A stretch of DNA of 64,000 nt from Ianthella basta (Eukaryota > Porifera > Demospongiae > Verongiida > Ianthellidae). The stretch spans positions 6,001,160-6,065,159 of the forward strand of contig OZ025889.1 of NCBI GenBank assembly GCA_964019415.1, written 5' to 3'. The translations under genes were made by a program, and so were the position numbers. This document shows, piece by piece, positions 29,301 through 38,300 of the stretch. The stretch's first letter is position 1. Every line of letters starts with the position of its first letter. The notes below the pieces were generated by a model. The model ran no database searches and had not been told where the DNA came from. It saw only the letters and a list, made by a program, of their open reading frames with translations.

Positions 29301-32300
29301 GGACTGATAATACGTATGGTAATACACTGGGACTGATAATACGTATGGTAATACACTGGGACTGATAATACGTATGGTAATACATTGGGACTGATAATAC
29401 GTATGGTAATACACTGGGACTGATAATACGTATGGTAATACACTGGGACTGATAATACGTATGGTAATACATTGGGACTGCTAATACGTATGGTAATACA
29501 CTGGGACTGATAATACGTATGGTAATACATTGGGACTGATAATACGTATGGTAATACATTGGGACTGATAATACGTATGGTAATACACTGGGACTGATAA
29601 TACGTATGGTAATACATTGGGACTGCTAATACGTATGGTAATACATTGGGACTGCTAATACGTATGGTAATACATTGGGACTGATAATACGTATGGTAAT
29701 ACATTGGGACTGATAATACGTATGGTAATACACTGGGACTGATAATACGTATGGTAATACATTGGGACTGATAATACGTATGGTAATACACTGGGACTGA
29801 TAATACGTATGGTAATACATTGGGACTGATAATACGTATGGTAATACATTGGGACTGATAATACGTATGGTAATACATTGGGACTGATAATACGTATGGT
29901 AATACATTGGGACTGCTAATACGTATGGTAATACATTGGGACTGCTAATACGTATGGTAATACATTGGGACTGATAATACGTATGGTAATACATTGGGAC
30001 TGATAATACGTATGGTAATACATTGGGACTGATAATACGTATGGTAATACACTGGGACTGCTAATACGTATGGTAATACATTGGGACTGCTAATACGTAT
30101 GGTAATACATTGGGACTGCTAATACGTATGGTAATACACTGGGACTGATAATACGTATGGTAATACACTGGGACTGATAATACGTATGGTAATACATTGG
30201 GACTGATAATACGTATGGTAATACATTGGGACTGATAATACGTATGGTAATACACTGGGACTGATAATACGTATGGTAATACATTGGGACTGATAATACG
30301 TATGGTAATACATTGGGACTGATAATACGTATGGTAATACATTGGGACTGATAATACGTATGGTAATACACTGGGACTGATAATACGTATGGTAATACAT
30401 TGGGACTGATAATACGTATGGTAATACACTGGGACTGATAATACGTATGGTAATACATTGGGACTGATAATACGTATGGTAATACATTGGGACTGATAAT
30501 ACGTATGGTAATACACTGGGACTGATAATACGTATGGTAATACATTGGGACTGATAATACGTATGGTAATACATTGGGACTGATAATACGTATGGTAATA
30601 CACTGGGACTGATAATACGTATGGTAATACATTGGGACTGATAATACGTATGGTAATACACTGGGACTGATAATACGTATGGTAATACATTGGGACTGCT
30701 AATACGTATGGTAATACACTGGGACTGATAATACGTATGGTAATACATTGGGACTGATAATACGTATGGTAATACATTGGGACTGATAATACGTATGGTA
30801 ATACACTGGGACTGCTAATACGTATGGTAATACATTGGGACTGATAATTGAATGGTCAGAACTCAGTGCGGCTGTGGAGCTGTGTGCAAGTGTTACTGGT
30901 GTGAACTGTTTGCAGGTACAGGACCTGGCACTAGCGTCATTGTAGGTCACATGGTGAAGATAGCTCAAGAACCTAAGCCTACGGACTGGCAAATGATGAT
31001 CACAGCTTACAGGAGAGACAGACAACTTGCGACTTGTGCAATTTCAGAATACAGTAGACTAAGCCTAGGCATTCATTGTTGGTCATAGTGACCTGTACCA
31101 AGGGTGCAGTGTACAGTTACAGTACAATGTCTATCAACTACTGCTACACTGTGACATATAATGGAGAGAATCTAGGCTAACACTGCTCAGCTAATAGGGC
31201 AGACACACTTTATGGTCATTAAGAAGTAGCAAGGCCAGCACCTTCTCCGCTGGCAGTTCTAGTCACACTGCCACCACACACACACACCTTCTGTCTCTCA
31301 CCGCCACCAGACACACACACCTTCTGTCTCTCACCCCCACCACACACACCTTCTGTCTCTCACCGCCACCACACACACACACCTTCTGTCTCTCACCACC
31401 ACCAGACACACACACCTTCTGTCTCTCACCCCCACCAGACACACACACCTTCTGTCTCTCACCGCCACCAGACGCACATACCTTCTGTCTCTCACCCCCA
31501 CCACACACACCTTCTGTCTCTCACCCCCACCACACACACATACCTTCTGTCTCTCACCCCCACCAGACACACACACCTTCTGTCTCTCACCACCACCAGA
31601 CACACACACCTTCTGTCTCTCACCACCACCACACACACACACCTTCTGTCTCTCACCCCCACCAGACACACACACCTTCTGTCTCTCACCACCACCAGAC
31701 ACACACACCTTCTGTCTCTCACCCCCACCACACACACACACCTTCTGTCTCTCACCACCACCAGACACACACACCTTCTGTCTCTCACCCCCACCAGACA
31801 CACACACCTTCTGTCTCTCACCACCACCAGACACACACACCTTCTGTCTCTCACCCCCACCACACACACACACCTTCTGTCTCTCACCCCCACCAGACAC
31901 ACACACCTTCTGTCTCTCACCCCCACCAGACACACACACCTTCTGTCTCTCACCGCCACCAGACACACACACCTTCTGTCTCTCACCACCACCACACACA
32001 CACACCTTCTGTCTCTCACCCCCACCACACACACACACCTTCTGTCTCTCACCCCCACCACACACACACACCTTCTGTCTCTCACCCCCACCACACACAC
32101 ACACCTTCTGTCTCTCACCCCCACCACACACACACACCTTCTGTCTCTCACCACCACCAGACACACACACCTTCTGTCTCTCACCACCACCAGACACACA
32201 CACCTTCTGTCTCTCACCACCACCAGACACACACACCTTCTGTCTCTCACCCCCACCACACACACACCTTCTGTCTCTCACCACCACCAGACACACACAC

Positions 32301-35300: not shown

Positions 35301-38300
35301 CACACACCTTCTGTCTCTCACCACCACCAGACACACACACCTGTCTCTCACCACCACCAGACACACACACCTTCTGTCTCTCACCACCACCAGACACACA
35401 CACCAGACGCACACACCTTCTGTCTCTCACCTCCACCACACACACACACCTTCTGTCTCTCACCCCCACCACACACACACACCTTCTGTCTCTCACCCCC
35501 ACCACACACACACCTTCTGTCTCTCACCCACACCAGACACACACACCTTCTGTCTCTCACCACCACCAGACACACACACCTTCTGTCTCTCACCCCCACC
35601 ACACACACACACCTTCTGTCTCTCACCCCCACCAGACACACACACCTTCTGTCTCTCACCCCCACCACACACACACACCTTCTGTCTCTCACCGCCACCA
35701 GACACACACACCTTCTGTCTCTCACCCCCACCAGACGCACACACCTTCTGTCTCTCACCCCCACCAGACACACACACCTTCTGTCTCTCACCCCCACCAC
35801 ACACACACCTTCTGTCTCTCACCCCCACCACACACACACCTTCTGTCTCTCACCCCCACCAGACGCACACACCTTCTGTCTCTCACCCACACCAGACACA
35901 CACACCTGTCTCTCACCCCCACCACACACACACACCTTCTGTCTCTCACCACCACCAGACACACACACCTTCTGTCTCTCACCACCACCAGACACACACA
36001 CCTTCTGTCTCTCACCCCCACCAGACACACACACCTTCTGTCTCTCACCCCCACCAGACACACACACCTTCTGTCTCTCACCCCCACCACACACACACAC
36101 CTGTCTCTCACCCCCACCACACACACACCTTCTGTCTCTCACCCCCACCACACACACACACCTTCTGTCTCTCACCCCCACCACACACACACACCTTCTG
36201 TCTCTCACCCCCACCAGACACATACACCTTCTGTCTCTCACCACCACCAGACACACACACCTTCTGTCTCTCACCACCACCAGACACACACACCAGACGC
36301 ACACACCTTCTGTCTCTCACCTCCACCACACACACACACCTTCTGTCTCTCACCACCACCAGACACACACACCTTCTGTCTCTCACCCACACCAGACACA
36401 CACACCTTCTGTCTCTCACCCACACCAGACACACACACCTTCTGTCTCTCACCCCCACCAGACACACACACCTTCTGTCTCTCACCACCACCAGACACAC
36501 ACACCTTCTGTCTCTCACCACCACCAGACACACACACCTTCTGTCTCTCACCCCCACCAGACACACACACCTTCTGTCTCTCACCCCCACCACACACACA
36601 CACCTTCTGTCTCTCACCCCCACCACACACACACACCTTCTGTCTCTCACCGCCACCAGACACACACACCTTCTGTCTCTCACCCCCACCACACACACAC
36701 ACCTTCTGTCTCTCACCTCCACCACACACACACACCTTCTGTCTCTCACCACCACCAGACACACACACCTTCTGTCTCTCACCACCACCAGACACACACA
36801 CCTTCTGTCTCTCACCCCCACCACACACACACACCTTCTGTCTCTCACCACCACCAGACACACACACCTTCTGTCTCTCCAGCTGCACTAGGTCTCCGAG
36901 TAACACTGCCTGAGCTGAGAGTTTCTTTGGACACACCCTCTGCTGAATCTTCTGGGGGTTTACCCAATAGTGAGGGAATGGTGGGTGGGCGCATAGTGTC
37001 CATGTCCTCTTTGAGGGACAGGGATCGCCGTGACAACCGCTGTGATGTAGACACACTGTGGGCAGGCGATGAGGCCACCTCAGGATCTCCAACGTCAATC
37101 GACTCCAACATCTTGGTTACAACATCGGGATCAGCCTCCCAACACTTCCTCAGGCTGCCAGCCATCTTCTCCCCAGTGTTGTACAGTGCTGTGAACCGCT
37201 TCACACAGACCTTGACAAGCTGACGAGCCAGCGATAGACAGCCGGTGATGTCAGAGAGGAACTGGACCACCAGTGGGAGGAGTAGCCGCAGCGGCTCGTC
37301 AGTGGGGTGGTGCTGACGTAGGGTCGTGGAGTCCAGGAACTCGATCAGTGACTTGAGGAATTCATGGCGGTCGAGGAGTCCCTTGTTGTACATCCATTGG
37401 GAGAGACGCACAATATACTGCCAGCGGGCCATGAGTGAGGTGGTGCCCCCCTCCCCTAGGGGGTCTCGATCAGGGTCACCAGGAGTTTCTCTGTCACCTC
37501 GAAACAGCTTGTTAGCAATGTCCCGTAGATATGAGCACACTGCAAGAGTCCACTCTACACAGACACACACGAGAGAGAGAGAGAGAGAGAGAGGAAGGAG
37601 AGAGAGATTAAAGCAATCAAAGCAGTATCTTACATTCAGGACACACACACGCACACACACATGCACACACACACGCACACACACGCACACACACACACAC
37701 ACACACACGCACACACACACGCACACACGCACACGCATGCACGCACGCACGCACGCACACACGCACACACGCACACGCGCACACACACACACACACACAC
37801 ACACACACACACACACACACACACACACACACACACAATGTAGTAGAGTACTGCTAGCCAAAGGGTTCCCTCCACCCACCCTGCGCTGGGTCTGGTGCTT
37901 GCTTCTTCCTCACTCGAGTCTCGTTCAGCATACAATTGTGAGCTGCTGTCATCTGGGGCCGCAGCAGGAAGAGAAGGAGACAACGGAGGGGAACACAAGA
38001 TGATGTCATCTCAACACTACATCACAACACTCACAAATACTGGTAGGCTCTTAGCTATGAAGGCCAACACATGACAAGTAGGTTCTTAGCTGAGGTGTGG
38101 AATTGAAGGATACAAGCGGATGAGCAACCACATATTTACAAAAGGGAGCAATTGAATGGTGAGCTGTTTCAACACCATACCCCTCACCCCTCACACCTCA
38201 CTCCCACACCCCTCACCCCTCACACCTCACTCCCACACCCCTGAGTCCTCCCATAATGCGGTACAGTTCCTTGTCTCACCTTAATGAACCAAGTGGCTCG

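Follow-up and report, generated by a model that had tools for sequence, protein, structure and literature searches.

In the demosponge Ianthella basta, an intron of the MED12 gene opens with a 33-bp minisatellite of 171 units, each of which appears to repeat the end of the preceding exon together with its 5′ splice site. The locus lies in a stretch of 64,000 nucleotides, here called the window (C22:6001160-6065159, from an assembly of 209 Mb in 96 contigs). The array is probably a minisatellite of the type known from lancelets as "mirages", most likely without function, and MED12 would be produced chiefly by joining the first donor to the best acceptor at a distance of 20.4 kb. The features involved are as follows, with splice junctions marked by a vertical bar.

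36868..37554, minus strand: MED12 exon upstream of the array, exon 8 in the original prediction (Med12-LCEWAV domain and 8tq2 homology; start from the gene finder)
36866..36867, minus strand: most exon-proximal donor GT, AAG|GTGTGT, phase 1 (donor score, full-model score)
31262..36879, minus strand: 33-bp array of 171 units, GAGAGACAGAAG|GTGTGTGTGTSTGGTGGNGGT, its first unit straddling the inferred exon-intron junction (Tandem Repeats Finder, TRF; unit splitting)
16447..30848, minus strand: second array, 29-bp unit, about 496 copies (TRF, splice-site scoring)
16410..16411, minus strand: first bases of the next MED12 exon, TTTGTACAG|AC AAG TCC (acceptor score, MED12 homology)

The gene and its 33-bp array

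The gene on the minus strand is MED12, as originally predicted. It carries the Med12 and Med12-LCEWAV domains of Pfam (PF09497, E 2.1e-16; PF12145, E 1.5e-07), and when the array-side exon and the next exon are joined, their translation matches PF12145 with E 9.3e-11 over stretch 112-338. Both flanks of the intron also align, in frame, to a solved MED12 (8tq2 chain C, E 9e-08), residues 185-306 corresponding to the exon before the intron and residues 327-405 to the exon after it; the latter match is weak by itself (i-E 0.057). The upstream exon is 687 nt long, and its final 12 nt (36879-36868) supply the exon-derived portion of the repeat unit. The inferred junction joins GAGACAGAAG (36868) to ACAAGTCC (16411).

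TRF reports the array at 31271-36879 with a period of 33, 170.9 copies and a score of 9308, far above chance, and cutting the gene strand at GAGACAG gives 171 units of 21 distinct types, so that the predicted number of about 170 copies holds. The first unit starts 12 nt within the MED12 exon. Among the 149 full-length units (148 measuring 33 bp, and the final one after trimming to that length), substitutions are absent from the 12 exon-end positions, and the nine variable positions all fall among the 21 intronic ones (P 0.0076, in a post-hoc test on this array only). The donor GT is kept in 169 of the 171 units and replaced by AT in the other two. The four units that lack AAG because of a 3-bp deletion still read CAG|GTGTG, as had been claimed. 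An exact 21-mer crossing the junction has 152 occurrences in the assembly as a whole, and as the window accounts for 152 as well, there is no exact copy elsewhere. In addition, in the one haplotype available, a run of 20 successive units appears a second time, offset by 29 units. One reading frame across the 33-bp units gives ERQKVCVSGGG; a coding variable-number tandem repeat was nevertheless rejected, because 16 units of 29 or 31 bp interrupt the frame.

The intron as a whole measures 20,456 nt, from donor 36867 to acceptor 16411, and the two arrays make up 97.8% of it. The 29-bp array spans 14.4 kb with 96-97% matches and stops 36 nt short of the acceptor; its exact unit is found 194 times on one strand genome-wide and, among the matches listed, always within 16447-30848. 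For scoring splice signals, a model was built from 39 donors of DNAH2, a gene that lies upstream of MED12 in the same direction and was recognized by alignment to a solved DNAH2. Of 1,295 GTs in the 33-bp array, 164 equal or exceed the score of the first donor (the first included, hence 163 further ones), and 171 reach the DNAH2 median. The rest of the MED12 intron, including the 29-bp array, has no donor at that median. For comparison, 13 good donors are found in 8,272 bp of other DNAH2 introns and one in 10,455 bp of DNAH2 exons. With a score of 6.9, the MED12 acceptor itself is under the lower quartile for DNAH2 (7.6), yet it is unequalled by any other AG of the intron, and none of those reaches that quartile.

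Similar arrays at DNAH2 donors

The anatomy seen in MED12 is repeated at DNAH2 exon ends that are fixed by alignment to solved DNAH2.

43337..43764, minus strand: 48-bp unit, about 9 copies, at the DNAH2 exon end CCCCTGGAGTG|GTGAGTGG, starting 11 nt inside the exon (TRF, homology)
57937..58033, minus strand: small diverged array, 40 bp x 2.7, at the DNAH2 exon end CTGGAG|GTAGGG (TRF; MYLE end fixed by homology)

Each donor and acceptor was searched for near-copies in its own intron. In total, 44 exon junctions were tried; one had no pair and two had poor pairs, which left 41 and, with MED12, 42 introns (two further doubtful DNAH2 junctions were dropped for the 39-donor scoring set). Copies spanning the donor are found in only two of the 42, MED12 (166 copies by this criterion) and the DNAH2 intron at 43753 (8 copies), while no acceptor-spanning copies are found in any of them. 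At 43753, where the junction reads ctggagtg|GTGAGTGG, eight further copies follow the first. The join LSPGV|DPTQ aligns without gaps to two solved DNAH2 chains, and the first copy is thus the donor that gives the conserved protein. A 27-mer searched from this array occurs seven times, always within it, and the exon-derived part does vary among its units. The array at 58027 is a weaker case, in which TRF places the start at -6 and CTGGAG|GT is repeated.

As a side observation, two pyrimidine-rich minisatellites (44236-44378 and 56678-56831, minus strand) end at most 10 nt from DNAH2 acceptors and contain no exon bases; they form a counterpart to the G-rich arrays at donors.

Given the like anatomy at the homology-fixed donor 43753, the MED12 array very likely grew from an exon-intron junction, as was first proposed. 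A tandem duplication reaching from 12 nt inside the exon to about 21 nt inside the intron would have copied the 5′ splice site. The recurring 20-unit block, the anatomy of the unit and the recurrence in DNAH2 together point to slippage or unequal exchange at the junction, followed by unequal exchange that included many-unit blocks and would have led to 171 copies. The exon would have stayed intact because copies accrue downstream of the first one.

Which donor ends the exon

In MED12, the junction sits in an unconserved linker without homology, and a second in-phase donor upstream comes within 0.8 bits of the first one in the array. Consequently, the MED12 donor is inferred rather than proven.

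36935..36936, minus strand: rival in-phase donor AGG|GTGTGT, score 8.0; if real, the array would be wholly intronic

The original prediction held that the array starts at the real donor and that phase continuity with exon 9 shows which copy is the true junction. The first of these claims survives as the best inference from sequence rather than as a direct observation, with 36867 as the best-supported exon end. The second was too strong: 36867 does match the phase of exon 9, but 36936 and 36963 are in phase too, so that phase alone does not pick out 36867. The donor score is more informative. At 10.7, donor 36867 beats 29 of the 39 DNAH2 donors and every other GT of the exon, and AAG|GTGTGT donors are present in DNAH2 as well (52700, 47938).

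Several observations weigh against a mirage spliced from this first donor. The full gene models score 198.5 for 36867 and 197.7 for 36936. In the tail 36963->36867, read in the frame of the exon, 9 of 31 third codon positions are G or C, compared with 24 of 38 just upstream, so the exon may end earlier; the coding score of this tail is slightly negative in the exon frame, and another frame gets a better one. Classic experiments with duplicated donors can favour the donor closest to the 3′ splice site, and such a preference would speak against use of the first donor here. Finally, two dynein paralogues (L034 and L035, 10 kb each) show no array at their 26 kept predicted donors.

Alternatively, the array may be purely intronic: the most probable exon end would then be 36936, upstream of the array, and the 33-bp repeat would simply hold donor-like sequence. 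This seems unlikely to us. The donor at 36936 outscores 12 of the 39 DNAH2 donors, and the close model scores and the low third-position GC of the tail count in its favour. Nevertheless, 36867 is the strongest GT of the exon, and two DNAH2 donors fixed by homology, as well as one predicted donor nearby, have arrays whose starts lie 6-12 nt within the exon. Furthermore, a frame-0 reading of the tail that has a positive coding score also ends at 36867, although it requires a poor acceptor. A gene finder trained on DNAH2 exons, which, in its own training set, recovers 37 of the 39 acceptors and 33 of the 40 known donors (36867 and 39 from DNAH2), likewise chose 36867; this is weak support, as the frame it used is incompatible with exon 9.

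Proposed splicing from the first donor and the probable fate of other transcripts

If the exon ends at 36867, the first donor would have to prevail over its copies. The likely reasons are that U1 would bind it first and stay coupled to the polymerase during synthesis of the intron, and/or that the exon would be defined from its upstream acceptor. Exons of 687 nt are long for exon definition, which favours order of synthesis with U1 held at the polymerase. In human cells, a tether between U1 and the polymerase that holds the upstream 5′ splice site is described in the excerpted text of PMC8316553.

The consequences of using a later donor can be read directly. The second AAG|GT donor appends GVCVWWW and then TGA, which agrees with the predicted stop after seven codons. 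All tested joins from later donors stop at once (ETEGVCVWWW and stop), and a 19-nt shift to a GTGAGA-type site puts a stop at the joined codon. Because they all contain the first copy, every later AAG|GT donor meets this TGA, and the first donor must therefore supply MED12. A stop codon upstream of many later junctions should trigger nonsense-mediated decay, so the transcripts from later donors would be destroyed. Thus, the stable truncated MED12 that had been envisaged is unlikely.

A functional version of the same arrangement would be an array of decoys, in which regulated use of later donors leads to unproductive MED12 transcripts that undergo decay, or to a short N-terminal MED12. The number of donors that equal or exceed the first, the immediate in-frame TGA and the unsubstituted exon-derived 12 nt would all suit such a role. 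We regard it as improbable: the unit variants resemble ordinary repeat turnover, an N-terminal product would have to evade decay, and the invariance comes from a post-hoc test of one array, while the exon-derived part varies in the DNAH2 array. It is still less probable that the array is an assembly artefact with an inflated or collapsed copy number. Long tandem arrays are difficult to assemble, but the 21 unit types follow each other in irregular order, which argues that the array is real even if its exact copy number is not. Least probable of all is a U1-binding platform, in which the roughly 170 good donor-like sites within 5.6 kb, near the start of a 20-kb intron, would prevent polyadenylation from occurring too early or hold the transcript close to the polymerase, since the MED12 intron contains neither AATAAA nor ATTAAA and offers little to suppress.

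Distribution in the surrounding region

In 264 kb around the window, where the gene finder retained 194 donor-bearing and 220 acceptor-bearing exons, arrays with 2.5 or more copies enter the exon at six predicted or known donors, MED12 included. One of them, outside the window (L022:1175-1455), is a 28 bp x 10 array that starts 12 nt inside a predicted exon, GAAGGGCTACAG|GTGGGTGTGG, with two unit types alternating in a 56-bp period. Counting by TRF boundaries, in 43 arrays of predicted introns of moderate length (from 64 merged; MED12 is not in this list), five arrays reach into the exon across its donor and none across an acceptor, or six and none when MED12 is added. This count is more sensitive than the count of copies, but array ends that extend by chance may inflate it. 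When all TRF rows are recounted, minisatellites cross seven donors, one of them with only 1.9 copies, as well as one predicted acceptor; there the overlap is 186 nt, in a coding-repeat stretch beyond the window. That stretch (window coordinates 115757-116654, C22 plus strand, L020) consists of 21-bp repeats reading YSPSSPK, which, in our own reading of the TRF unit, presumably resemble the C-terminal repeats of RNA polymerase II.

The stricter count of near-copies shows no general excess, and only the two large arrays stand out. At least one copy is found for 6 of 187 donors and 8 of 187 upstream controls, and for 4 of 216 acceptors and 6 of 216 downstream controls; two or more copies are found for 2 of 187 donors and for 1 of their 187 controls, and for none of 216 acceptors or their 216 controls. 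With regard to composition, 14 arrays have their start between -12 and +22 relative to a donor, and the gene strand of 13 of them is G-rich. The wider contrast is weak: G-rich arrays number 19 of the 25 that lie closer to a donor and 11 of the 18 closer to an acceptor.

Elsewhere in the genome, 70 kb from other contigs contain no junction-spanning minisatellite at any kept predicted donor. In 50 kb from C1, C5 and C9, arrays at kept predicted donors occur in C5 only, where one minisatellite begins 2 nt past the donor and a (GT)n lies at another, with its TRF start 5 nt inside the exon. On C22, pieces of 22 kb have a TRF coverage of 0.031-0.052 over 5913-6001 kb and of 0.095-0.179 past the window towards the contig end, but the first piece has 0.127. 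Donor-spanning arrays are thus real but uncommon, and may be concentrated in this repeat-rich end of C22. It is conceivable, if somewhat doubtful, that 5′ splice sites are preferred birthplaces of minisatellites here and that, in addition, a strict first-donor rule ignores about 170 identical downstream donors.

Some simple repeats and neighbouring features were also observed. A (GT)n starts exactly at the predicted donor GT at 41513 and 10350 (minus strand) and at four sites outside the window, that is, at 6 of the 194 kept donors in the 264 kb; another count gives 10 overlapping TRF rows. Two very similar Q-rich C-terminal ends of MED12 lie at 5170-5593 and 7208-7699 (minus strand), each finishing with YQGAPHYRQPGFYQ before the stop codon, which suggests a duplication of the last portion of the gene. 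At 1911-3429 (minus strand), a long open frame of about 500 codons has the appearance of a putative retroelement product.

Comparison with known arrays

Tandem arrays over splice junctions are already known in kind. Lancelet mirages are tandem repeats across exon-intron boundaries, described in Adh3, in the globins BflGb6 and BflGb9 and in TnC, with a similar case in PGBD5; in the available portions of these sources, regular splicing is reportedly undisturbed and reverse-transcription PCR is reported as normal (PMC3087553, PMC3902484). As in mirages, the unit spans the exon-intron boundary in MED12, if its donor is 36867, and at DNAH2 43753, and in MED12 nearly all units keep the splice signal. 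The differences are mainly of size and position. According to the excerpts of PMC3087553, lancelet units range from 10 to 72 bp in Adh3 and are about 150-160 bp long in the globins, and the BflGb6 haplotypes have 6 and 3 repeats, compared with 33 bp x 171 in MED12. Lancelet mirages, as far as these excerpts go, hit both exon boundaries, while the present sample involves donors only.

In human genes of segmental duplications, boundary minisatellites with units of about 30 bp are able to alter splicing; in the portions of the source that were available, they remodel gene structure and create introns, whereas the MED12 exon appears unchanged and its intron lengthened (PMC2812944). UBC and VCX3A contain dual-specific AG|GT sites in tandem repeats and resemble the MED12 array in having AG|GT in nearly every unit (PMC10809524, in part). 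Those sites act as both donor and acceptor, while the MED12 array, judged by score only, has no AG that rivals the true acceptor. Experimentally duplicated 5′ splice sites likewise set identical donors in competition, with two or a few copies in a construct instead of about 170 in a natural gene.

In a literature search whose coverage left out most subscription papers, no boundary-spanning array of such size was found. The gene, unit, copy number, stop codon and exon 9 phase of the original prediction all stand, and its junction origin is very likely; the uniqueness of the phase does not hold, and the kind of array had precedents. What is new here is the number of copies, the 98% share of the intron taken up by two satellites, and the presence of 163 additional donors whose strength matches or exceeds that of the first.

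Implications

The choice among identical donors is an old question that has been addressed in constructs of a few copies. The sponge locus offers an apparently intact gene with about 170 equal donors in a known order, and its 21 unit types let RNA distinguish many of the copies. Nearly exclusive use of the first donor would mean that the order of synthesis, or coupling to the upstream exon, counts for more than the number of competitors and their proximity to the 3′ splice site. Otherwise, MED12 would yield mostly unproductive RNA.

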